Below, in pieces: positions 3,335 to 37,184 of a DNA stretch of 38,385 bases. The notes below the pieces were generated by a model, which was given only the letters and a program-made list of their open reading frames with translations, searched no databases and was not told the DNA's origin. Location of the stretch: the NCBI GenBank assembly GCA_019873685.1, contig JAIOAT010000035.1, forward strand, positions 1 through 38,385, in the 5' to 3' direction. Position 1 is the stretch's first letter, and the number at the start of each line of letters is the position of its first letter. The stretch comes from Chloroflexota bacterium (GTDB lineage: Bacteria > Chloroflexota > Anaerolineae > Aggregatilineales > Ch27). A program made the position numbers and the translations under genes.

Positions 3335-4669
3335 TCAAGACAGGCCGGGCGAAGGCAGGGGTGTAGGCGTCGATTCCAGCGTCGGCCAGGGAGTAAGCTC
3401 CGGCAACGGCGTGGGCACCGTTTGCTCCAGGAAGCACAGCAGTCCCTGGACGATTCCCTCCGCCAGCAGATCAGGCCGGTTTTCCAGCAAATCGCGATCC
3501 TCGTACAGAAAGCCCAGTTCGATAATCCCCGCCGGGGTCACCTCAGAAATCTCGTTGAAGCTATGGTACTCGGTCATGTCGCGGGTGATGCTGGGATGCA
3601 CCGGCATATTGGTGACTGCCTGGTAGCGCTGGAGCAGGCAGTCGCGCAGGCGCAGGTCGTCGGCGCGGGCGGACGTGCGGGAGGCCGGCGGCGCGACCTT
3701 GAAGCCGGTCGCGCCGGGCAGGTTGAACTGGTGGCAAGAATCGGCGTGAATGGACAGCAGCACGGAAGCCTGGTAGCCATCCAGGCGCGGGTCCCACTCG
3801 TCCAGCAGGTCAACATCGTAGCCCCGGCGGCTGAGCGCCTGGACAACAAGCTGGGCCACATTGCGGTTGACCTCAGCCTCGGTCAGACCGTCCGGGCAAA
3901 CCGCGCCGGGATCGCTGCGACCGGTGCTGGGATGCGGCCCCCAGTGCCCGCTGACGATGCCGATGCGCCGCATCCAGATCGGCGTCGGGATGGGCGTCGG
4001 CGGCGATTGGGCGCTGAGGGTGGCGTAGGCCGGGCGCAGACCCTCCCGTGTTTCGTCGCTCAGGAAGCTGGCCGGAGTCCAGAACGTGAAGATGGTGGCG
4101 ATCAGGGCGGCGGCAGCAGCAACGACCATCAGCGACTGGATCATGTTGAGCAGCGGGCTGGCATGGCGCGCCCTGGCCCGGCGCTCCCGGCGACGGCGAG
4201 CGCGGGCGGCGGCGGGGTCTTCCTGGATGGCCGCTGATGCCCCCCCTGCAGCGGTCGCCTGTATAACAGGCGCCGCCGACGCCCCCTGCCCGGCAGGCGC
4301 GGCGACAGACTCATCCGGCGCTTCAACCGGGATCGGCAGCGGCCCCTGATCTGCCGCTTTATGCATCAGCGCCGCCTCCAGCCAGGCCGGACCGGTTTCT
4401 CCGGCAGCTTCTTCCGGTCGGACGCTAACATCCTGCAGCCAGGCCGGAACGCCTTCCGCCGGTGTAGGGATATTCGCTGCGGCATGATCATCGGGGGGCC
4501 GTGCCGGTGGCGGAGTCGGAGGCGGTGATGCTGCCGCGCGCGCCCGGCGCGCCGCGGCCTCGGCTACCCGCCGGTCGCGGATGCGCCGCAGCCAATCCGG
4601 GATTTCGTCTGGCCCGCCAGCAGGCGGGGGATCGCCGGGCGTCGGGGGTTGGATGGGTTCGTCGCTCAT
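3335..4669 (-). CDS. Membrane-anchored N-acetylmuramoyl-L-alanine amidase (Amidase_3)
   Basis: 444 residues. A long Pro/Ala-rich N-terminal tail (1-170), likely cytoplasmic, contains three P-x-WL motifs (IPDWL about 23, VPAWL about 74, GPAWL about 93). It ends in an Arg-rich stretch before one membrane helix at about 175-197. The extracellular part (235-424) is an Amidase_3 zinc hydrolase, which cleaves the amide bond between MurNAc and the stem peptide of murein. Likely zinc ligands and catalytic residues are His242 (SGHWG), a Glu at 264 or 266, His308 (LLSIHAD) and Glu384 (GIIELGFL). The C-terminus is Thr/Pro-rich. The ATG at 4669 has no Shine-Dalgarno sequence but lies 8 nt after a TATGAT box, so translation may be leaderless. 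The glutaredoxin-like gene follows. Confidence 0.88.
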   Translation of the reverse strand: MSDEPIQPPTPGDPPPAGGPDEIPDWLRRIRDRRVAEAAARRARAAASPPPTPPPARPPDDHAAANIPTPAEGVPAWLQDVSVRPEEAAGETGPAWLEAALMHKAADQGPLPIPVEAPDESVAAPAGQGASAAPVIQATAAGGASAAIQEDPAAARARRRRERRARARHASPLLNMIQSLMVVAAAAALIATIFTFWTPASFLSDETREGLRPAYATLSAQSPPTPIPTPIWMRRIGIVSGHWGPHPSTGRSDPGAVCPDGLTEAEVNRNVAQLVVQALSRRGYDVDLLDEWDPRLDGYQASVLLSIHADSCHQFNLPGATGFKVAPPASRTSARADDLRLRDCLLQRYQAVTNMPVHPSITRDMTEYHSFNEISEVTPAGIIELGFLYEDRDLLENRPDLLAEGIVQGLLCFLEQTVPTPLPELTPWPTLESTPTPLPSPGLS

Positions 4670-4677
4670 GAGCGGGG

Positions 4678-4707
4678 ATCATACCAGCCCTGCCCTGCCA
4701 TCCGCAA
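4678..4707 (-). promoter_or_regulatory. Promoter of the amidase gene, leaderless type
   Basis: On the minus strand TTGCGG (4702-4707) and TATGAT (4678-4683) are separated by 18 bp. The -10 box ends 8 nt before the ATG at 4669, so a typical start of transcription would fall at or next to the start codon. No ribosome binding site is present in those 8 nt. Confidence 0.5.
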
Positions 4708-4851
4708 GCACCCGGCAGCGCAGGGATGAGACCGGAGGCCGGGAGACCGCGACGTCGGCGGTATGGACAACCGTCAGCAGGCTGGCAATCGGGGTCTGTT
4801 GGCGGTTAAGATAGTAAGGGAAGGAACGGCGAATTGCCGGGGGAAACTACG

Positions 4852-5802
4852 ATGCATGAGACTGCCGCGCCCGCTTATGTTGCGCTGCTGGAAAGCGGCG
4901 AACTGGCCCGCCGGGCGGAAGAAGCCTGCCGCCTGATGACGGCCTGCGTCCTGTGCGCGTGGAAGTGCCGGGTCAACCGCACCGCCGGAAAGATCGGCTT
5001 TTGCCGCACCGGGACGCTGCCGCGGGTCAGTTCTTACTTCCCCCACCTGGGCGAGGAAGATTGCCTGCGCGGCTGGCGCGGCTCCGGCACGATCTTCTTC
5101 GCCAACTGCAACATGCGCTGCCAGTACTGCCAGAACTACGAGATCAGTGCGCTGGGCCAGGGCACGGAGATCACGCCGGAGGCGCTGGCAGGGATGATGC
5201 TGGAATTGCAGGAGGCCGGCTGCCACAACATCAACTTCGTCTCGCCCAGCCATGTCGTCGCGCCGATCCTGGTCGCCGTGCTGATCGCGGCTCAGGCCGG
5301 GCTGCGCCTGCCGCTGGTCTACAACACCGGCGGCTACGATTCGCCGGAAGCGCTGGCCCTGCTGGATGGCGTGATCGACATCTACATGCCGGATATGAAG
5401 TACGGCGACGCCGCCATTGCCCAGAAGTACAGCAAGGTGCCGGACTACCCCCGTCACAACTACCGCGCCGTGCGGGAGATGCACCGTCAGGTCGGCGACC
5501 TGGTGATCGACCCGGCGACCGGCCTGGCCCGGCGCGGGCTGCTGGTCCGCCATCTGATCCTGCCCGGTGGGCTGGCCGGGACGAAAGCGGTCATGCGTTT
5601 TCTGGCCAAAGAGATTTCGCCAGATACTTACGTCAATCTGATGCCGCAGTACCGGCCCGCCTACCGCGCCGCAACGGAGGATATGGGCGTGCTCAGCCGC
5701 CCGGTCACCGCTGAAGAAGTGGATGAAGCCTACACAATCGCCCGGAAGGCTGGCCTGCATCGCTTTGATGCCCGGCGTCCCTTTGCCATCTGGCAGGTCT
5801 GA
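4852..5802 (+). CDS. Radical SAM protein related to pyruvate formate-lyase activating enzymes (PflX/COG1313-like)
   Basis: 316 residues from the ATG at 4852, preceded by GGGGGA about 8 nt upstream. A TTG at 4834 is an alternative start. The radical SAM cluster motif is C86-N-M-R-C90-Q-Y-C93, which holds a 4Fe-4S cluster and cleaves S-adenosylmethionine. Four more cysteines lie before it (32, 35, 39, 51), as expected for the COG1313 group of PFL-activase-like proteins. Further signatures are YNTGGYDS, DIYMPDMKYG and VNLMPQYRP. The substrate of this group is unknown. The next gene is 59 nt away on the same strand, but HEAT proteins do not clarify the role. Family assignment is strong; the target is not known. 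Confidence 0.88.
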   Translation: MHETAAPAYVALLESGELARRAEEACRLMTACVLCAWKCRVNRTAGKIGFCRTGTLPRVSSYFPHLGEEDCLRGWRGSGTIFFANCNMRCQYCQNYEISALGQGTEITPEALAGMMLELQEAGCHNINFVSPSHVVAPILVAVLIAAQAGLRLPLVYNTGGYDSPEALALLDGVIDIYMPDMKYGDAAIAQKYSKVPDYPRHNYRAVREMHRQVGDLVIDPATGLARRGLLVRHLILPGGLAGTKAVMRFLAKEISPDTYVNLMPQYRPAYRAATEDMGVLSRPVTAEEVDEAYTIARKAGLHRFDARRPFAIWQV

Positions 5803-5861
5803 GCGCCGGGTAAACAGGACCGTTGCCCGGCGAAACCCACACGAGGATTCAAGGGCAAGAG

Positions 5862-6353
5862 ATGACCCATACCCGCAACGTCGATACGCTGATCGCTATC
5901 CTGCGCGACCCGCGCCGGGGCCTGGCTGTCCAGGATGAGGCCGTGCGCCAGCTGGCCCGCTACGCCGAGGAAGCCATCCCGCCGTTGATCGCGCTCCTGA
6001 GCGACGAGGATACTGGTGTGCGCGGGCGGGCCGCAGCGGCGCTGGGCCGCTGCGGAGCCAGGGCCATCGCGCCGCTGCGGGCGGCGCTGCCGGACGCCGC
6101 CCCGCTGACCCGCCGGGGCATCGCCCTGGCGCTGGGGCTGACGCGCAGCGCGCGGGCGGTGCGCCCGCTGGTCGGGCTGCTGGCTGACCCTGACGCGGAA
6201 ACGCGCCGCCGGGCGGCTGTCGCCCTGGGCTGGCTGGGCAATGATTACGCCGTTGACGCCCTGACTGCCGCCATCAATAACGATGAAGAAGAGGCGGTGC
6301 GCGCCGCCGCTCAGGACGCCCTGGCGAAGATCTGCGCCGGGCGCAGGCCCTGA
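5862..6353 (+). CDS. Small HEAT-repeat protein
   Basis: 163 residues from the ATG at 5862, with AAGGG about 7 nt upstream; a TTG at 5823 would add 13 residues but lacks a good ribosome site. The sequence is a run of short PBS-lyase-type HEAT repeats of about 31 residues. Each pairs a helix like IPPLIALLSDED or VRPLVGLLADPD with a helix like VRGRAAAALGRCG or TRRRAAVALGWLG. Such repeats form a curved helical scaffold for protein binding, and some relatives are phycobilin lyases. No enzymatic motif is visible. It is followed after 32 nt by a larger HEAT-like protein, so the pair may be an operon. No partner can be named. Confidence 0.82.
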   Translation: MTHTRNVDTLIAILRDPRRGLAVQDEAVRQLARYAEEAIPPLIALLSDEDTGVRGRAAAALGRCGARAIAPLRAALPDAAPLTRRGIALALGLTRSARAVRPLVGLLADPDAETRRRAAVALGWLGNDYAVDALTAAINNDEEEAVRAAAQDALAKICAGRRP

Positions 6354-6385
6354 GTCTGGCTACTCCGCATCACAGGAGGACGGTC

Positions 6386-7672
6386 GTGCTGGAAGACCTG
6401 GATCGGATTGACTGGGCACACCTCAGGCATTCTCATGGTATGGCGACCGAGTTCCCCACGTGGATTCGCCAGCTTCGCTCGGATGATGCTGCTACCCGCC
6501 AGGAAGCTCAGGAGACCCTGTTCGAATACAGCAATCATCAGGGCAGCATCTACGAGGTAACCCCTTACCTCGTCCCCTTCCTCATTGAACTGGCCGCGGC
6601 AAAGGATACGCCCGATCGAGCCGCATTGCTCTACCACCTGGGGAACATCGGGCGATGCTGCAACTGGACGGTGGCCCGGAGCATCTATGGCGGCGACGAG
6701 CACGAGACATACGAGCGGATCAAGGGCGGACTGGAGCTTTACCTGGCGTTACTGGATGACAGCGATTCCGAAGTGCGGCTGGCCGCCTTCTTTGCCGCCA
6801 CCGCCGTAACGCTGTTCGTCAATATCTGGAATGTCCTGGAGCAGCTTATGACGGCCCTTGAGCGTGAGGGCGATCCTGCCGCCAGAGTCGAGATGATCGG
6901 GTGGCTGGGCGAGTACACACGCGGCAAAATCCGGCGGGACACCCCCGCCGGGCATGCCATATCAGGTCAAAAACTGGTGGCATTTCTCTGCCGGTTGACC
7001 CGACCGGAAGAGGATCGGCGGGTCAGGCTTGCCGCCGCTCTGACCTACCTGACGCTATGGGGAGATTGGACCCGGGAGGCCGCCGCCTTCCGCCCGCTAT
7101 TTCGGGATGTCCTGGCGCAACCGGAAGCATATGCGGGTTCGGATGATGGACTGGCGTGCCTGATCATGCTTGAAAAGGTCATCGAAGGGCTGATGTTCGA
7201 GCCGCGTGCTGGCCGCCTGGAAGATCTGGCGGCAGGCTTGCGGGCAGCGCGTTACCCTGAGGACGCTCACCTGATCGCACGGGCGCTGCTGGATACCCTC
7301 TTCTGGGGTGTGGTGCGTGCCGATGATGCGAGCTACGGCCCGCCCCGGACAGAGCTGCGCCTGGAACGCCGTCTCCTGGCCGACGGCGACCTGGCTGAGC
7401 GCCCGGACAACCGCGCGATCACCTTTCGGCATTATCCCTGGCAAACGCAGGAGGAAGCCCGGCGACAGGGCTGGTTTTACCTCAGCGATCCGCCCCCAGT
7501 TGATCCCGGCACCCTGTCAGCCGGTGAGCGCGACATGCTCCGGTTGGTGCTGGAAACGCCCCTGGTCTGGATGGTACACAGCAATCTACTGGCCGCTTAC
7601 GGTCTGCCGGTAAACCGCGCCGAGACCCTGCGCCTGCTGGCTGAAAGCGAACCGGGACCTTCCCTGTCCTGA
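6386..7672 (+). CDS. HEAT-like repeat protein of unknown function
   Basis: 428 residues starting at a GTG (6386) that has a strong ribosome site, AGGAGG, about 6 nt upstream. The N-terminal segment (IDWAHLRHSHG, FPTWIRQLRSDD, EVTPYLVPFLIELA) resembles a HEAT-type family common in actinobacteria, in which a histidine-rich entry segment precedes helical pairs. Helical repeats continue to about residue 300, and the last quarter is less regular. No catalytic motif is seen. Some members of the wider family occur near toxin-immunity loci, but nothing here shows such a context. It is convergent with the cupin gene downstream. Confidence 0.75.
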   Translation: MLEDLDRIDWAHLRHSHGMATEFPTWIRQLRSDDAATRQEAQETLFEYSNHQGSIYEVTPYLVPFLIELAAAKDTPDRAALLYHLGNIGRCCNWTVARSIYGGDEHETYERIKGGLELYLALLDDSDSEVRLAAFFAATAVTLFVNIWNVLEQLMTALEREGDPAARVEMIGWLGEYTRGKIRRDTPAGHAISGQKLVAFLCRLTRPEEDRRVRLAAALTYLTLWGDWTREAAAFRPLFRDVLAQPEAYAGSDDGLACLIMLEKVIEGLMFEPRAGRLEDLAAGLRAARYPEDAHLIARALLDTLFWGVVRADDASYGPPRTELRLERRLLADGDLAERPDNRAITFRHYPWQTQEEARRQGWFYLSDPPPVDPGTLSAGERDMLRLVLETPLVWMVHSNLLAAYGLPVNRAETLRLLAESEPGPSLS

Positions 7673-7750
7673 CAGGCAAAGACAACGCACGCCGGTCGTG
7701 GCGAGATTCCAACTGGTAAAGCATGAAGCACGCCGCAATGCGGCGAAGTT

Positions 7751-8131
7751 CTACTCGTCTTCGGTGCCTATGGGATCAATCCCGGCAGTTTCAACCATGA
7801 GCATCACTGTCTTCTTTGGCGCCCTTGTCCGGTGCATGACGCCTCTGGAAATCGTCGCTCCCTGATTAGGGTTAAGCGCGATCGTTTTGTCCTCCAGATC
7901 GATGAGCAATTGTCCGCTCAAGACAAAAAAGAACTCATCGTCGTCTTCATGCTTATGCCAGTGATATTCGCCTTCAACTATCCCAAGCCTGACTACACTG
8001 TTGTTGACCTTGGTTAGCGTCTGATTGAACCATTTCTCGTTGCATTCTTCGACCAGTGCAGGCACATCAATGACTTCCTGATGATCGTACTTGATGTTCA
8101 TTTGCTGTTTGTAGTTGTACTTCTTGCTCAT
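7751..8131 (-). CDS. Single-domain cupin
   Basis: 126 residues from the ATG at 8131, preceded by AGAGGA about 9 nt upstream. A longer in-frame extension to 8326 lacks a ribosome site and does not look like protein. The cupin metal-binding motif is clear: H57-W-H59-K-H61 followed by E66, then the turn FFFVLSGQLLIDLED, with the second motif ending at His100 (GVMHRTRAP). The closest functional class is small cupin_2 proteins, which may be isomerases, metal-binding or sensor proteins; the substrate is unknown. Codon use is markedly more AT-rich than in its neighbours (AAA, AAT, ATA and TTT all present), suggesting recent transfer. A TATAAT lies at 8208-8213 on this strand, without a clear -35 element. 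Confidence 0.85.
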   Translation of the reverse strand: MSKKYNYKQQMNIKYDHQEVIDVPALVEECNEKWFNQTLTKVNNSVVRLGIVEGEYHWHKHEDDDEFFFVLSGQLLIDLEDKTIALNPNQGATISRGVMHRTRAPKKTVMLMVETAGIDPIGTEDE

Positions 8132-20774: not shown

Positions 20775-22670
20775 CTAACGCGGCGCGTGCGGCCCGATCA
20801 GCGGCCCGGACAGGATCAGCACCGGCTGGTCAAGCGGCGTCACCCAGCGGTTCCACGCCTCATCCCGGTAGAAGTAGCGCGGGCCGGGCGGGAACTTGGC
20901 GATCAGACTCTCGCGCAGCGCCGGAGGCATAAACAGCAGCGGGTTGACGATCCAGCGATCCCGGTAGCGAATCTCCACATGGACGTGATTCTGCCCGCCC
21001 AGTTCCAGCGTGCCCAGGACGGTATCCGGCGTGATCGCCGCGCCAGGGGCCAGCGGAGCCGGGTTGGCCAGATGGCCGAAGATCACGGTGTAATCCCCGG
21101 CTTTGACCCACATGCCGTTAGGCAGGGTGTAGCGCGTTTCCCGTTTGATGAAGACTCCGTTCAGGCCGGCGACCACCGGCACGGCCTCCTGCGAGTTGCC
21201 AAAATCCACCCCGCCGTGCAGCCCCTGGGCGTAAGCGTACGAGCGCGCCCCGCCGGCCCACAGGTTATAGGCAAAGACATTGTTGCCAAAGTACTGCCAC
21301 CAGTGCGTCTTTTCCAGCGGGATGGGCGGGCGGCTGAACAGATTATCCAGCAAGGGCAACGTCTCCGGAAGGGGGAGACCCTCCTCAAAACGCGGCCCAG
21401 GAACAGGCGGACGGTTGGCGAATTCGGCGGGATCAAAGAGGTAGCGCTCCGCCCCGCTGACGCTGCACTCGGCGCTCCAGCCGCGCTCGTGCGCCCACCA
21501 GACATAGCCATCAGCGACCGTACGCGACGATCCCCGGACGGTGATCTGCTCGCCGGGCAGCAGCCAGCCCAGATGCACGCCGCGCAGGGCGGGGATATCC
21601 CGGATGCGCACCTGTTGATGCCCCGCCTGGAAGGTGCGTGCGGCCGGTTGTTCGCCCGGCGGAGGCGCTTCCGGCGGCGTAGCGGGGGGCAGCGTCGCCG
21701 GGTCGAGCAGGTAGGTCGCTGATCCGTCCAGGGCGCGCTCGGCGCTCCAGCCCTCGGCGTGCCGCCACCAGACATAGCCATCGGCTTCTGTGCGGGAGGT
21801 GGCATCCACGTTGATCGTCTGCCCCGGCTCCAGCCAGCGCACCGGCGTCGCATTGAGGCCGGGCGCCTGTCGGACACGGACGCTCTCGACAATGGCAAAG
21901 GTGCGGACCAGCAGGATCGGCGGCGCGGGTGCAGGGCCTTCGCCCGTCGGCTCCTGCAGGTAGATCTCACCGCCGTCCAGCCGCCGCTCGGCGCTCCAGC
22001 CTTCGGCGTGCCGCCACCACACATAGCCATCAGCCTCCGTGCGGGAAGCAGCATCAACGGTCAGGCGTGTGTCGCGGGGCAACCAGCGGAGGTGTCCGCC
22101 CTGCAGCCCCGGCGCGGCCCGGACGCGCACCTGCTGAACGACCACGAAGTCGCGCGTCCCGGCAGGGGGCGCGGGCGTTTCCGCCGCCGGGGCGGGAGCC
22201 TCGGCCTCCAGCAGCACAAAATAGACCGCCGCACCGTCGAGCGTACGCTCGGCGCTCCAGCCACCGGCGTGCTGCCACCAGATATGGCCATCGAGCGCCG
22301 TGCGAGAAGCGCCATTGGCTGCGAATACCGTACCGGGCGTCAGCCAGCCGACCGGCTCCCCGCCGAAGCCAGGGGCGGCGCGGACGCGTACCGGCGCTTC
22401 CCCGACGCGGAAACGGACTGTTTCCGCCGTCAGCCCGGCGTCGATCAGGTAGACCTCAACGCCATCGAGCGTGCGTTCAGCCGTCCAGCCCCCGCCATGC
22501 TGCCACCAGACATAGCCATCGGCTTCCGTACGCGAGGCAGCGTCGACCGTGATCTGTTCCCCCGCCGCCAGCCAGCGGAGATGTTCCGCCCGCAAGCCCG
22601 GCGCACGACGGACGCGCACCTGCTGCCGGGCGCGAAAAACGCGGATGCCCTGCGGAGTTTGACCTGCCAT
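20775..22670 (-). CDS. Five-repeat SH3-like protein with a C-terminal M23 metallopeptidase domain
   Basis: 631 residues from the ATG at 22670 (AAGGGG about 9 nt upstream). The frame is open to 23021, but that part overlaps a better small gene. Residues about 10-410 are five tandem copies of a 60-75 residue module. Each begins VRVRxAPG, continues through WLxPG and SRTxADGYVWW, and ends GWSAExxLDG. The pattern is like bacterial SH3 domains that bind wall peptides. The C-terminus (about 455-600) is an M23 domain with LHGGVDF (His485, Asp489) and VHVEI (His562 and 564). There is no signal peptide at the chosen start, so export is unexplained. It is probably a wall-binding peptidase or a catalytically weak relative. 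Confidence 0.82.
   Translation of the reverse strand: MAGQTPQGIRVFRARQQVRVRRAPGLRAEHLRWLAAGEQITVDAASRTEADGYVWWQHGGGWTAERTLDGVEVYLIDAGLTAETVRFRVGEAPVRVRAAPGFGGEPVGWLTPGTVFAANGASRTALDGHIWWQHAGGWSAERTLDGAAVYFVLLEAEAPAPAAETPAPPAGTRDFVVVQQVRVRAAPGLQGGHLRWLPRDTRLTVDAASRTEADGYVWWRHAEGWSAERRLDGGEIYLQEPTGEGPAPAPPILLVRTFAIVESVRVRQAPGLNATPVRWLEPGQTINVDATSRTEADGYVWWRHAEGWSAERALDGSATYLLDPATLPPATPPEAPPPGEQPAARTFQAGHQQVRIRDIPALRGVHLGWLLPGEQITVRGSSRTVADGYVWWAHERGWSAECSVSGAERYLFDPAEFANRPPVPGPRFEEGLPLPETLPLLDNLFSRPPIPLEKTHWWQYFGNNVFAYNLWAGGARSYAYAQGLHGGVDFGNSQEAVPVVAGLNGVFIKRETRYTLPNGMWVKAGDYTVIFGHLANPAPLAPGAAITPDTVLGTLELGGQNHVHVEIRYRDRWIVNPLLFMPPALRESLIAKFPPGPRYFYRDEAWNRWVTPLDQPVLILSGPLIGPHAPR
21430..22625 (-). 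repeat. Five coding tandem repeats in the SH3/M23 gene
   Basis: Five in-frame copies, each about 190-260 bp, visible at DNA level because segments such as CCACCAGACATAGCCATC (plus strand) recur nearly unchanged. Copies 1, 3 and 4 are most alike, copy 2 (GHIWWQHAGG) and copy 5 (ECSVSG) the most diverged. Recent duplication or gene conversion is likely. Confidence 0.85.
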
Positions 22671-22735
22671 AGCGGGTTCCCCTTCTATCGGAATGTTGAT
22701 GGGAGTGATTGCCGGGGGAAGCCCGGCCGGACGGG

Positions 22736-22918
22736 TTAACCGGATGCCAGCGCACCCAGGAATTCGACGAGATCGCCGCCCGTCGTGAAGACCAGGCCGA
22801 CCAGCAGCGCCAGCAGTACGGCCAGCCCCGCCAGCGTCAGGCCGACGACCACAGCGATCAGGCCGCATTCCACCAGGCGCGTCCACGACCACACCGGATG
22901 GCCGTTGTCTGCAGTCAT
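22736..22918 (-). CDS. Small single-helix membrane protein
   Basis: 60 residues from an ATG with GGGGGAG 7 nt upstream. A polar N-terminus (MTADNGHPVW) is followed by one long hydrophobic stretch (CGLIAVVVGLTLAGLAVLLA and beyond) and a short tail. It lies 65 nt upstream of the SH3/M23 gene on the same strand, so they may be cotranscribed. It might help localise or export that protein, but that is speculative. I do not recognise a family. Confidence 0.6.
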   Translation of the reverse strand: MTADNGHPVWSWTRLVECGLIAVVVGLTLAGLAVLLALLVGLVFTTGGDLVEFLGALASG

Positions 22919-23091
22919 AGGCGGCTCCCCCGTGTGTGCGGGCGTCTGCGCCGGGGATGAACAATGCGCACCTGCCCGCAGCGACCGGCACTTTCAGTAT
23001 ACGGGGTTTGCCGCCCGGCAATCAAGGCGGCCCCTCTCCCGCGCCCATCGCCAGCCGCCCGGCAGGCCGTTGATGGGCGCGGGAAGGCTCA

Positions 23092-32328: not shown

Positions 32329-32713
32329 ACACTACCCCTCCTGAACCTGTGTGTTGCGCGAAGGCTGCCACACGGCAAAAGCGCGGCTGTTCCTGGGTCG
32401 TGGTCCAGACCGCGTCAGGTCGGGGGTGGTCTGTTGGCCGCGAGCGCCCGCTGAAGCCGGGCAATCGAGGAAACGAAGCGCGCTTTCCGGGGTGGTCTTC
32501 GCGCTATCCCTGTAAACCGCCGATCACGATAGCGCGGCAGGATTAGAATCGCTTTAACGCTGCATAGAAGTTCTGTTAGAGTTTTCCCGCCACCGGCGGC
32601 CTGGCGGAGCGCCGGGTGACGCCGCTATGGAAGTTGTCCCCGTCCCGGCTTGCGGGCATAATCAGATTGTGGCGGCGCGACGCTCCAACAACGAAGGGCA
32701 GCGGCGGGAATCC
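32329..32713. other. Divergent intergenic region between the htrA and ECF sigma genes
   Basis: About 385 bases with no credible gene. The right part carries the sigma gene promoter (32634-32662). An ATTAGAATC near 32541 is a further -10-like site on the plus strand. I see no clear promoter for htrA. Shared regulation is possible because the two units are divergent. Confidence 0.45.
32634..32662 (+). promoter_or_regulatory. Promoter of the ECF sigma gene
   Basis: TTGTCC (32634-32639) and CATAAT (32657-32662) are 17 bp apart. The transcript would start near 32669, about 45 nt before the ATG at 32714. Confidence 0.5.
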
Positions 32714-33310
32714 ATGGACGAACAGGCATTGATCGCGCAGGCGCAGCGGGGGGATGTCCTGGCTTTTAACGAGCTGGTGCTGGCCTACCAGGATCGGCTG
32801 TATAGCGCCGCCTACCGCATCCTGGGCGATCCGGCTGCCGCCGCCGATGCCACGCAGGAAGCCTTTATCGCCGCCTTCAAGGCGCTGGAGGCCTTTCGCG
32901 GCGGGAGCTTCAAAGGCTGGCTGTTGCGCATCGTGACCAACGCCTGCTACGACGAACTGCGCCGCCGGCAGCGCCAGCCCGCCGATTCCCTGACCGATCT
33001 GCCGCCGGAGGATGGAACCGAATCGCTGCCACAACTGGCCAGTGACGCCGAAGACCCGGAAGATCACGCCCAGCGCCGGGAACTGAGCGCCGGGATCGAG
33101 GATTGCCTCCGCGGCCTGCCCGCCGAGCAGCGGGCGCTGGTCATCCTGCGCGATGTCGAAGACCTGGACTACCAGGCCATCGCCGCCGCGACCGGCCTGG
33201 AACTGGGCACAGTGAAGTCGCGCCTGAGCCGCGCCCGCGCCCGGTTGCGCGATTGCCTGCGTGCACTGGGGGAACTTTTGCCGTCCGCTTATCGTCTAGA
33301 GAACGAGTAA
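32714..33310 (+). CDS. ECF-family RNA polymerase sigma factor
   Basis: 198 residues from the ATG at 32714 (GGGAAT close upstream); a longer frame to 32627 has no ribosome site. Sigma region 2 covers about 10-85 (FNELVLAYQDRLYSAAYRIL, DATQEAFIAAFKALEAFRG, WLLRIVTNACYDELRRR). Region 4 covers about 125-180 (LPAEQRALVILRDVEDLDYQ, GLELGTVKSRLSRARARLRD). There is no region 1.1 or 3, as usual for ECF sigmas. An acidic linker (DLPPEDGTESLPQL) separates them. The next gene, 46 nt downstream, encodes the likely anti-sigma factor. Confidence 0.95.
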   Translation: MDEQALIAQAQRGDVLAFNELVLAYQDRLYSAAYRILGDPAAAADATQEAFIAAFKALEAFRGGSFKGWLLRIVTNACYDELRRRQRQPADSLTDLPPEDGTESLPQLASDAEDPEDHAQRRELSAGIEDCLRGLPAEQRALVILRDVEDLDYQAIAAATGLELGTVKSRLSRARARLRDCLRALGELLPSAYRLENE

Positions 33311-33356
33311 CTCTGTGGGCCTGCGCGGGGAACGATATTGAGGCCGCAGCGGGGAT

Positions 33357-34313
33357 ATGAACGATCTGACGCCTGCCGACCTGGAATTGCTGTCGGCGTA
33401 CCTGGATAATGAACTGGCGCCTGCCGAACGGGCTGCCCTGGAGCGCCGCCTGGCAGCGGACGCCCGCCTGCGGGCGGAACTGGAGGCGCTGCGCGGGGTT
33501 GCCGCCCGTGTGCGTGCCCTGCCTGTTCTGGCGGCCCCGCGCGACTTCCGCCTGGACCCGGCTGTTTACGGCCGCCGGGAAGCTGGCAGCCTGCGCACAC
33601 CGATCCGGAGCGTACCGCTGCGCCGGTTCTACGGCTGGGCCAGTGCCCTGAGCGCCGCTGCTGCCGCACTTATCCTGCTGGTTGGCGTAGCAGGCCTGCT
33701 GGGATCGGGCGCACTGCCCTACGCGGTAGCCCCCACCGGGCAACAGGCTGCCGCGCCGCTTACCCTGACCGGCGAAGCGCAGATCGCCATGGCCCCGACC
33801 GCCACCATCCCGTTGACGCTAACGCCTCTGGAAACCGGGGAGACACCTGAAGCAGTGGGAAGCACCCCCCTGCCGCCGAATGCGCTGGCAGCGGAAAGCG
33901 CGATCGCCGGCGCAGAAGCAGCGGCGCCCGCCGCTGAGGCTACCACGTTCGATGGCGTTGCTGCCGCTTTCAGCGCCGCCGACGCTGCCGCCAACGGCGT
34001 CGAAACCGACAGCGGCGAAGAAGAAGCGCCGCCCGCCGTGTTGCTGGCGCCCGGCCTGCGCGCCGGCGAAGCGCCCGCCACCAAGAGCGGGGTCGCACTC
34101 CCAGAAGCGACGGCGCTGCCCACAGCGACCGCAGTGCCTACCGCGGTCGCCATCGTCCCGGCGGGTGGTGGACTGCCAGCGGTCGAACCTGCCGCCGAAC
34201 TGACGCCCACCCCCTCAATGCCGCCCAGCGATCCGGAAGCGCTGATCGGCGCCGGGTGCGCCCTGATGGCGCTGGCGGTGATGTTCTTCGCCCTCAGCCG
34301 CCGGGCCAGATGA
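33357..34313 (+). CDS. Anti-sigma factor candidate with two membrane helices
   Basis: 318 residues from an ATG with a GGGG-type ribosome site. The N-terminal region (DLELLSAYLDNELAPAERAA, then LERRLAADARLRAELEALR) is the anti-sigma helical domain that clamps the sigma factor. It lacks the HxxxCxxC zinc motif of ZAS anti-sigmas. A membrane helix spans about 83-110 (WASALSAAAAALILLVGVAG), followed by an about 180-residue Ala/Pro/Thr-rich extracellular part. A second membrane helix lies near the C-terminus (GAGCALMALAVMFFALS). Release of the sigma factor could involve cleavage by an envelope protease, and htrA is adjacent, but this is inference. Confidence 0.85.
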   Translation: MNDLTPADLELLSAYLDNELAPAERAALERRLAADARLRAELEALRGVAARVRALPVLAAPRDFRLDPAVYGRREAGSLRTPIRSVPLRRFYGWASALSAAAAALILLVGVAGLLGSGALPYAVAPTGQQAAAPLTLTGEAQIAMAPTATIPLTLTPLETGETPEAVGSTPLPPNALAAESAIAGAEAAAPAAEATTFDGVAAAFSAADAAANGVETDSGEEEAPPAVLLAPGLRAGEAPATKSGVALPEATALPTATAVPTAVAIVPAGGGLPAVEPAAELTPTPSMPPSDPEALIGAGCALMALAVMFFALSRRAR

Positions 34314-34335: not shown

Positions 34336-36012
34336 TCAGGTTTTGTCCCCATCAGGTTCAGCCGCCGCCAGTGCGGCGGCGATGCGCTCCCCCTCGTCCA
34401 GCGGGCGGCCAGTCGCATCAACGGCCAGCATCGCCCCGTCGATGGCCCGCGCCCGGACGCGCCCCGGTGCATAGGGATTGTTGACAAGCTGCGGTGCGTC
34501 CAGCAGGCCCAGCGCCACCGCCCGCGCCAGCACGTCCGGGCTGGTCAGCGGATCGTCGCTTTCGCCGGCGTCCAGCGCCCGGATCGCCGCGATCAGGCGC
34601 TGCGTGTCCGCGATCAGGGCCGCCTTACGGGCCTGGACAGCCGGGTCAGCGGCCATGTCCAGGTTGCCGCGCAGGGCCGTTTCCACCACTTCCTGCGTCA
34701 TCACACAGGCCTCGATCACCTCGTCGGCAGTGGCGGCGTGATGCGCTTCTGTGTGGCCGACCACATGGATGATGTGCGGGCGCAGGGCCATCTGCAGCAT
34801 GGTGCTCTGGGCCAGGTGCGCTCGCGCCCGGCGCAGATCAACCGGATGGCTCAGGAGGCCGGTGCGCGTCTGCCGCCAGATGTGGAAGTCGTCGCTGGCG
34901 AAGGATTCGGTCAGCTCGACAATCGCCAGCGCACGGGCCAGGTCCATCCGGTTGGAAAGCTGCGGCGGACTCTGGAACATGTAGGTCATGATGTAGTCGC
35001 GCACGCCGCAGCGCCGGGCGTTGTAAGCGTAAAGATACGCCGAGGCGCACACGATCACGTCCGGCGCGTCGCGCATCCCCCAGTGATAGGACTCGTTGCC
35101 CTCCACCGGGATGTCGCGTTCGCCATGCCAGCGCATCAGCGCCTGGTGCTCGGCGATGGACTGCGCCAGCGGCGATGGCCCACGCCCGTCCATAGCGTTG
35201 AACCAGAACAACGACGTGGCGCACCAGGCGTTATCGATGGTGCGGACGAGCATCTCGGCGTAGCGCAGATGATCAGCGGTGCCGGAGTAGGCCCGCAGCA
35301 GTGGGTAGTTGCCTCGTCGGCTGGCGGCGTACAGCGCGCGCAGGTCGTCTTCAGTGCGGAGGGGCACACCGCCCGCGCCTTTGCTGCGCGGGTTCTGGCG
35401 GGAGGGGTGGAAGAAGTTCTCCTGCGCGTCCTGGTCGGAGCCGAGCGAGATCACATCCAGCGCGCCGGATTCGGCAATGCGGGCGATGCCCTCCACCGTC
35501 GGCGCGATCGTCTGCGCAGGCAGGCCGAAGTGGTGGCGTAGAAGCGGGTAGGGAGCCTTCCAGCGGATGCGTTCGACAGCCCGCTGAGGGAAAAACTCCG
35601 GTCCGGCCTCGGCCAGGGTCTCGCCACGCAGGGCGGCGCGGATGGCGTGCGGCGGTTCCTCGCCGGAAAAGACGGCGTCGAAGTAACCCATCTCGCGGGC
35701 GACCTCGGCTACCGGCGGCGTCCCGCCGAAGAAGATGCGCTTACGGCCCAGCACACCTGCCGCTCGCAACATACCTTCCAGTTCCCGCAGGAGCGTCCGG
35801 GCGTTCTCCGGCGTCAGGCGATAACTGACACCGATCACGTCGGGGTCAAAGGCGACGATTGCATCAACGAAGACCTCCGGATCGGTGGCCGGGCCGGTGA
35901 AATACGTCTGGCAACCGGCTTCCTCAGCGATCGCCAGGAAGCGGGTCACGCCGGCGACATGGACGCAGTCGCCCAGGCTACCGGCCAGCACGCGACTGGG
36001 CATCCCGGTCAT
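34336..36012 (-). CDS. Cobalamin-binding protein with a mutase-like C-terminal domain
   Basis: 558 residues from an ATG with AGGAGG 5 nt upstream. The N-terminus (LAGSLGDCVHVAGVTRFLAI) looks like a B12-binding domain in which His18 could coordinate cobalt (H-x-x-G). The usual DxHxxG is changed to D-C-V-H. Segments GVSYRLTPENARTLL and IFFGGTPPVAEVA follow. The C-terminal part (about 230-480), with NAWCATSLFWFNAMDGRGP, ESYHWGMRDAPDVIV and VGHTEAHHAAT, resembles the barrel of B12-dependent mutases such as GlmE, without matching any I can name. It lies 32 nt after the opine dehydrogenase gene in one operon. A B12-dependent step on an amino acid is plausible but unproven. Confidence 0.82.
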   Translation of the reverse strand: MTGMPSRVLAGSLGDCVHVAGVTRFLAIAEEAGCQTYFTGPATDPEVFVDAIVAFDPDVIGVSYRLTPENARTLLRELEGMLRAAGVLGRKRIFFGGTPPVAEVAREMGYFDAVFSGEEPPHAIRAALRGETLAEAGPEFFPQRAVERIRWKAPYPLLRHHFGLPAQTIAPTVEGIARIAESGALDVISLGSDQDAQENFFHPSRQNPRSKGAGGVPLRTEDDLRALYAASRRGNYPLLRAYSGTADHLRYAEMLVRTIDNAWCATSLFWFNAMDGRGPSPLAQSIAEHQALMRWHGERDIPVEGNESYHWGMRDAPDVIVCASAYLYAYNARRCGVRDYIMTYMFQSPPQLSNRMDLARALAIVELTESFASDDFHIWRQTRTGLLSHPVDLRRARAHLAQSTMLQMALRPHIIHVVGHTEAHHAATADEVIEACVMTQEVVETALRGNLDMAADPAVQARKAALIADTQRLIAAIRALDAGESDDPLTSPDVLARAVALGLLDAPQLVNNPYAPGRVRARAIDGAMLAVDATGRPLDEGERIAAALAAAEPDGDKT

Positions 36013-36044
36013 GGCATCCTCCTGGGGAATATGTAGAGAACGGC

Positions 36045-37184
36045 TCAGTCCGAGGACCGGTGATTGGCTTCGGCGCGGCCAGTATTCACGAGATTGGTGA
36101 TCTCCGTCAGGGAAAGGCCCTCCAGCCCCATACGGGCCAGCGTCCGGCCCCGGTAACGGTAATCCGTGCCATGCAGGACACAGGCCAGCTGGATCATGGC
36201 CTCCATACCCCACACATCCACGCCGAAGCGCCGCCCCAGCTCGGCGATAGGCACCATGCTGTAAGGCACATCCTCGAAGATATAGCGGTGACGCAGGGTG
36301 GAAGGAGCATTGATGCCCTTGTAGCCGGGGTTATCGTGGATGGCCTCGTAGAGGTCCTCGCCGTGGGCGGAGTAGGCGCGGGCCAGCCATTCCTGGGCGC
36401 TCTGCGCCCGGACGCCCATCGCCGTCGCCACGGTGACGCGCTCGCGGTCAAGCCGTTCCAGCAGGCGGGCGGTTGAGGGGGTCACGCCGTCGATATAGAA
36501 CTCGAACTCGCCGCCGGTGGCCTCGATCCAGCCGGCGTTGAGCAGGGTCAGGGCGGGGTGAAAGATCGCGCCCATGTTGTTCAGACTGGTGTAGAGCACG
36601 TTCGGCGCAGCGATGAAACTGGGGTAGATCTCCTGGACGAGATCGAGCACCTGGGCGGTCCGTGTGGCGGGCAGGGCAGCCAGCGGCACGGCGTCCTTGC
36701 GGCGGAAGATCCGCGCCTCCGCTGGCCCCATACTGCGACTGGCGAAGATGAAGGTCTCCGCCTCGGCAATGGTCACGTCGGCGGTGCAATTCTGCTCGGC
36801 CAGCACCTGGCGGAACTCCAGCGCGCCGCCAGTGCGCCCCGGGTTGAGCACCACGATCTGGCCGTCCTGCAGGTGCGGGGCACAGGCCAGGGCTACATCG
36901 CGGTGGGCCGAGGCCGGGACGACAACCATGATCAGCTGCGATCCGGCCAGCGCCTGGGCCATATCGCTGGTGACGCGGTGCAGATGGCCGAAGACCTGAC
37001 GGCCATCTTCCAGATCAACCGTGATCCCGCCGCGGGCGTCGATGGCAGCGATGTTCTCATAGCTGCGGTTGTACAGGCAAACGCGGTAGCCGCGCACGGC
37101 CAGGTCGGCGGCCATCGCTTTGCCGCCGTGCCCGGCCCCGATGATCGTGATCTGTAGTTCCTGCGGGTACTGTTGATCGGTCAT
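36045..37184 (-). CDS. NAD/NADP-dependent opine (octopine/nopaline-type) dehydrogenase
   Basis: 379 residues from the ATG at 37184 (AGGGAGCG upstream). A Rossmann fold opens ITIIGAGHGGKAMAADLAVRG (positions 12-32; the Gly-x-Gly-x-x-Gly is IGAGHGGKA). The C-terminal octopine_DH domain starts about residue 200 with NNMGAIFHPALTLLNAG, whose His209 is the expected catalytic histidine. Opine dehydrogenases reduce the imine formed between an amino acid and a 2-oxo acid, or run in reverse. The gene is first in an operon with the B12 protein. A hairpin with a T-run sits in its leader. The amino-acid and oxo-acid partners are unknown. Confidence 0.92.
   Translation of the reverse strand: MTDQQYPQELQITIIGAGHGGKAMAADLAVRGYRVCLYNRSYENIAAIDARGGITVDLEDGRQVFGHLHRVTSDMAQALAGSQLIMVVVPASAHRDVALACAPHLQDGQIVVLNPGRTGGALEFRQVLAEQNCTADVTIAEAETFIFASRSMGPAEARIFRRKDAVPLAALPATRTAQVLDLVQEIYPSFIAAPNVLYTSLNNMGAIFHPALTLLNAGWIEATGGEFEFYIDGVTPSTARLLERLDRERVTVATAMGVRAQSAQEWLARAYSAHGEDLYEAIHDNPGYKGINAPSTLRHRYIFEDVPYSMVPIAELGRRFGVDVWGMEAMIQLACVLHGTDYRYRGRTLARMGLEGLSLTEITNLVNTGRAEANHRSSD

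Follow-up and report, generated by a model that had tools for sequence, protein, structure and literature searches.

What might an opine dehydrogenase (ODH) and a B12-dependent mutase-like protein accomplish together, given that they are encoded side by side? The question is raised by two minus-strand genes of the window, by which we mean the whole 38,385-nucleotide stretch of Chloroflexota DNA analysed here. An earlier note on this DNA had described the genes as lying 32 nt apart, each with its own ribosome site, and this layout was confirmed on the minus strand: 32 nt separate the ODH stop codon from the ATG of the B12 protein, and plausible ribosome sites are found 5' of both start codons, GGGAG for the ODH and AGGAGG for the B12 protein (see table). 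A YchF-type GTPase gene lies upstream of the pair, also on the minus strand. No Rfam match was obtained around the operon, and searches for a terminator or promoter at the operon returned none that was convincing. Downstream of the pair and convergent with it, a sigma-factor-like ORF is followed by an anti-sigma-like ORF (window 32627-34313, plus strand). Also identified in the window was a 748-aa ORF (20775-23021, minus strand) comprising several SH3-like 'VRVRxAPGL...GWSAER' repeats and then a peptidase-like end.

Table. Features of the ODH/B12 mutase operon, in window positions.
Feature	Position	Strand	Basis
Opine dehydrogenase (ODH) gene, 379 aa, predicted acidic-amino-acid subclass	36045..37184	-	PF02317 E 1.7e-49; PDB 1bg6 E 9.3e-79
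Intergenic gap of 32 nt, AGGAGG ribosome site ahead of mutase ATG	36013..36044	-	sequence
B12 mutase gene, 558 aa, one chain: cobalamin-binding domain at the N-terminus, then GlmE-type barrel	34336..36012	-	
Cobalamin-binding domain, residues 3-132, G-D-C-V-H-V-A-G motif	35617..36006	-	PF02310 and VIA
GlmE-type barrel, residues 137-546	34375..35604	-	VIA to 1cb7_B and alignment

The window ODH is closest to the Arthrobacter enzyme ArODH/CENDH (1bg6; 38% identity), and combines an Octopine_DH domain with a Rossmann NAD(P) domain, the catalytic dyad H209/D305 and the active-site residue W266. Among 33 aligned ODHs, R40, R117, G205, H209 and W266 are invariant, while D305 is represented by 27 Asp and 6 Glu residues; R40, R117 and G205 correspond to positions 35, 111 and 198 of ArODH, respectively. 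According to Telek 2024 (PMC10787698), Arg at position 111 and Gly at position 198 govern the preference for acidic amino acids, with double mutants swapping Phe and Asp preference in both directions, and Arg at position 35 accompanies NADPH use; the same study reports that six hot-spring metagenomic ODHs (mODHs) use L-Asp and L-Glu with pyruvate. From these signature residues, the window ODH is predicted to belong to the acidic-amino-acid subclass.

All 83 mutase-paired ODHs combine R111 with G198, even the octopine-type members, which share just 21-25% identity with ArODH and for which the position-111 column is less certain; the combination was absent from 12 distinct ODHs unlinked to a mutase. 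Judged from these residues, the mutase is thus associated with one kind of ODH and not with the ODH family as a whole. The few unlinked ODHs that do carry R111 and G198 are mostly found at contig ends or in mutase-containing genomes, the main exception (L164) belonging to a genome that is 73% complete. A different gene set surrounds unlinked ODHs lacking the acidic signature at two loci (L142:13570-19047, and L153 at about 3898-8100). Both sets include an MmgE/PrpD protein and a FAD protein that is sarcosine-oxidase-alpha-like and contains a [2Fe-2S] domain, accompanied in L142 by a saccharopine-dehydrogenase-like protein, and look like genes for the catabolism of N-substituted amino acids.

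For the second gene, Pfam searches identified a B12-binding domain (PF02310, E 1.2e-10) at residues 7-118, together with a match of the C-terminal half to Met_asp_mut_E (PF06368) at E 9e-4, which is below the Pfam cut-off. In an alignment of 36 full-length sequences of this family, 25 members individually matched Met_asp_mut_E with E 0.1 or better, the best at E 2e-10. Consistent with these matches, an AlphaFold2 model (mean pLDDT 85.6) placed GlmE as the best PDB match of the C-terminal barrel (1cb7_B; VIA Z 31.3, rmsd 3.1 over 376 residues), and N-terminal residues 3-132 gave VIA Z values of 15-17 to the cobalamin domains of 1y80, 4jgi, 2yxb and 1i9c_A. A comparison of the predicted barrel with those of GlmE, lysine 5,6-aminomutase and OraE, which the earlier note had proposed, thus yielded a mutase-class fold with GlmE closest, the barrels of ornithine 4,5-aminomutase and lysine 5,6-aminomutase following at Z 25-28. 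Because of these Met_asp_mut_E matches and VIA Z values, the C-terminal half can be assigned to the GlmE type, and the modelled protein as a whole is a GlmS-GlmE-like enzyme in a single chain, with the B12 domain first. The view that this half fits no named enzyme therefore no longer holds for its fold, and it remains apt in that the protein is not a standard glutamate mutase.

The latter point emerges from the active site. Three arginines of glutamate mutase, R66, R100 and R149, hold the substrate glutamate (PMC10947579). When 20 barrels from two clades were aligned with three GlmE sequences using MAFFT, the columns of these arginines were found to be occupied by invariant His, Gln and Tyr (H161, Q197 and Y242 in the window protein), and GlmE D96 and E330 to be conserved (D193 and E422); the mapping was made at 15-16% identity and is firmer for E330, which HH-suite also recovers, than for strands 1-4. 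MAFFT was used because the HH-suite alignment with GlmE was confined to the barrel's second half, and its global run was not relied on for strands 1-4. The equivalent of GlmE E171 is ambiguous, being D275 by alignment and A265 by motif reading.

The cobalamin domain is likewise modified. The canonical cobalamin motif is DxHxxG. In keeping with the earlier note, which had reported an N-terminal His and an altered motif reading D-C-V-H, we found H18, a candidate cobalt ligand, to be invariant among relatives, and the window motif to read G-D-C-V-H-V-A-G. Alignment of relatives places Cys at the position of the canonical Asp, which turns the motif into CxHxxG; among sequences whose N-terminus is intact, L037 is the sole exception, with N-D-V-H-V-A-G (DVHVAG), and the His and Gly of the motif are retained. 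With Cys instead of Asp, the usual His-on chemistry might be changed or lost altogether. Given both this motif and the replacement of the arginine claw, we refrain from calling the protein a glutamate mutase. A decayed standard glutamate mutase was ruled out, the changed residues being invariant over two clades.

These residues bear directly on whether the mutase may work on a free acidic amino acid, through an interconversion resembling that of glutamate and 3-methylaspartate, with the ODH storing, exporting or breaking down the product as an opine. The fold of the barrel and B12 domain, closest to that of glutamate mutase, would suit such a role, as would the acid-specific ODH signature, which fits Asp, Glu or methyl-Asp (PMC10787698). 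However, invariant His, Gln and Tyr stand in both clades where glutamate mutase has its substrate-holding arginines (PMC10947579), and methylaspartate ammonia-lyase (PF05034) was not found in the window genome, which is 97% complete, in a search that detected the family in two control plasmids. We consider a free amino acid unlikely as the substrate, though far from negligible. Thus, of the operon that the earlier note had envisaged, comprising an ODH and an amino-acid-rearranging B12 mutase, the conserved pairing (see below) and the mutase fold stand, whereas the replacement of the glutamate-binding arginines makes a free amino acid no more than one candidate substrate beside the opine.

Further insight into the B12 protein was provided by its relatives. 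In one locus (L039), a MutL/GlmL gene lies directly upstream of the mutase and overlaps its start, and loci L147-L150 combine the mutase with GlmL and a tandem pair of ODHs, followed in two of these loci by oligopeptide-type transporter genes. With 593 bits, the GlmL of the L148 module scores above the NCBIfam equivalog cut-off of 475. In twelve further loci, which form a second clade, the B12 domain, barrel and MutL are fused into a single polypeptide of some 1210-1264 aa, and 11 of these 12 fused genes have an ODH on one side or the other. No GlmL adjoins the module in the window genome; a distant MutL-like protein of 703 aa, whose MutL domain is N-terminal, is encoded elsewhere (L062:6615-8723; contig C46:20641), away from any mutase gene. 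The same genome possesses a PduO-type adenosyltransferase gene. The linkage or fusion of GlmL to the mutase in relatives argues strongly, if indirectly, for the B12 protein being a genuine AdoCbl mutase. The same observations bear on a role as a B12-dependent methyl carrier or sensor built on a mutase-like fold, which would accord with the Cys in place of the Asp of DxHxxG and with the scores of the B12 domain near those of the corrinoid methyl-carrier proteins 1y80 and 4jgi. Set against this are the mutase-class barrel (Z 31 to GlmE), the conservation of E330 and the presence of GlmL, a mutase reactivase, in the gene clusters or fused chains of relatives, and we regard such a role as very improbable.

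The composition of these extended modules varies among clades. Many second-clade loci possess an RpiR-type regulator and an SBP_bac_5-type transporter, an Orr-like racemase and a gamma-glutamyltransferase occur in two loci of the fused clade and in L150, and an amidohydrolase is found at L145. In the first clade, an asparagine-synthase-type amidotransferase lies beside or between both genes in twelve loci. At L091, within a complete genome of the phylum (G206, 5,801,598 bases), the mutase, ODH and asparagine-synthase-like genes are consecutive. Clades with transporter genes point to uptake followed by breakdown, and loci with the amidotransferase to synthesis; the direction of the pathway may differ between lineages. 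A purely catabolic module, in which the ODH would split an opine-like or N-substituted amino acid after its import and the released amino acid would be rearranged for degradation, would account for the importer, regulator, racemase, gamma-glutamyltransferase and amidohydrolase beside the module in sister clades. Against it, the window clade lacks such neighbours, and the amidotransferase of the 12 loci points to synthesis. We treat a purely catabolic role as a tentative possibility.

Whether the two genes belong together at all was addressed by surveying their neighbourhoods, the earlier note having named conserved pairing in relatives beforehand as one of the observations on which its proposal should stand or fall. 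A first survey covered 38 loci from public genomes and a further 27 after a phylum-wide search, and in nearly all of them an ODH adjoins the B12 gene. Across 249 genomes of the window organism's class, a mutase was found in 83, an ODH in 89 and both in 81 (Fisher p 2.5e-53, a value which ignores relatedness and so overstates independence); pairing is thus strongly conserved, with 81 of 83 mutase genomes possessing an ODH. An ODH lies within 6 kb of 77 of the 90 mutase matches, some of which are fragments, and on one strand with the mutase in all 77. Because most of the 249 genomes have neither gene, the ODH-mutase pair is an accessory module. In a tree of 77 rows, built by a quick method, an ODH adjoins the mutase in 72 cases, and three of the other five mutases lie at or near contig ends. 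Two lone mutases (L035 and L050) occur in genomes with an ODH bearing the R111 and G198 signature elsewhere. One locus (L154; G455:C26:36968-37321) retains only a B12-domain piece of the mutase of about 120 aa and no ODH, possibly reflecting joint decay of the module.

Such proximity might be a by-product of shared ancestry, devoid of functional meaning. All pair-bearing genomes that we found are indeed from Chloroflexota; a search of a plasmid collection gave no match to the window mutase, the fused protein matched GlmL only, and no relative was identified there from outside the phylum. However, adjacency and strand have been kept despite an inversion of gene order, which is ODH-mutase in the window clade and mutase-ODH in the other clades. 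In addition, two ODH subfamilies of about 25% identity both pair with the mutase, and neighbours outside the module are mostly unconserved. We therefore find an origin by shared ancestry alone scarcely credible, and functional coupling of the two genes strongly supported.

Taken together, these findings lead us to propose, with a probability of about 0.6, that the AdoCbl mutase and the acidic-amino-acid ODH constitute one two-enzyme pathway, so far undescribed. Arrangement, pairing, fold and ODH signature were established directly, and it is from these that we infer cofactor use, substrate, reaction and direction. The ODH would join or split an amino acid of the Asp/Glu type and an oxo acid, probably pyruvate, in a reaction that is probably NADPH-linked. 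The mutase would form a 5'-deoxyadenosyl radical and carry out a 1,2-rearrangement of a substrate drawn from the same small pool. With the glutamate-binding arginines gone, that substrate could as well be an opine, and the order we would prefer has the mutase acting on such an N-carboxyalkyl amino acid, because the glutamate-holding residues have been replaced, the pairing with an acid-specific ODH is nearly absolute and tandem ODHs occur in one clade. It is conceivable, at somewhat less than even odds, that the B12 protein represents the first AdoCbl mutase known to act on an opine: the ODH would add an oxo acid to an acidic amino acid, the mutase would rearrange the conjugate, and a dehydrogenase, in one clade the second tandem copy, would release the rearranged amino acid, or the reverse. 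The sister-clade module with GlmL and an oligopeptide-type importer looks catabolic.

A search of open-access papers returned none linking an opine dehydrogenase with a B12 mutase. The folds and families of the parts are already known; no description of the mutase family, of its pocket or of the pathway seems to exist so far. To our knowledge, there is only a small number of AdoCbl carbon-skeleton mutases, each of which founded a pathway. Here, a conserved single-chain mutase with a rebuilt pocket is tied to an assayed ODH subclass, leaving a short list of candidate substrates, and the acidic ODHs of hot-spring metagenomes gain a likely physiological partner. If correct, the proposed pathway would make opines metabolically relevant in a major, mostly uncultured phylum.

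Comparison with known systems places the module among three sets of enzymes. The ODH resembles the mODHs and ArODH/CENDH (1bg6) in its R111, G198 and R35 signature and its His-Asp dyad; the mODHs in the literature were characterized singly, as biocatalysts, and the part of Telek 2024 (PMC10787698) consulted mentions no genomic partner. With glutamate mutase (GlmS/GlmE, EC 5.4.99.1; PDB 1cb7 and 6h9e), the B12 protein shares a Rossmann-type B12 domain, a GlmE-type barrel that keeps E330 and D96, and a GlmL partner, here in related loci. It differs in its single-chain layout, which starts with the B12 domain, in CxHxxG and the exchange of R66/R100/R149 for H/Q/Y, and in having an ODH as partner in a genome where methylaspartate ammonia-lyase was not found. 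The OraSE and KamDE operons offer a parallel in overall organization, namely an AdoCbl enzyme with an NAD(P)-dehydrogenase neighbour and a GlmL-like protein, and an Orr-like racemase is present in some sister loci of the module described here. OraSE and KamDE use PLP, diamino acids and other dehydrogenase families, and fold ranking puts the barrel of the window protein nearer to that of GlmE.
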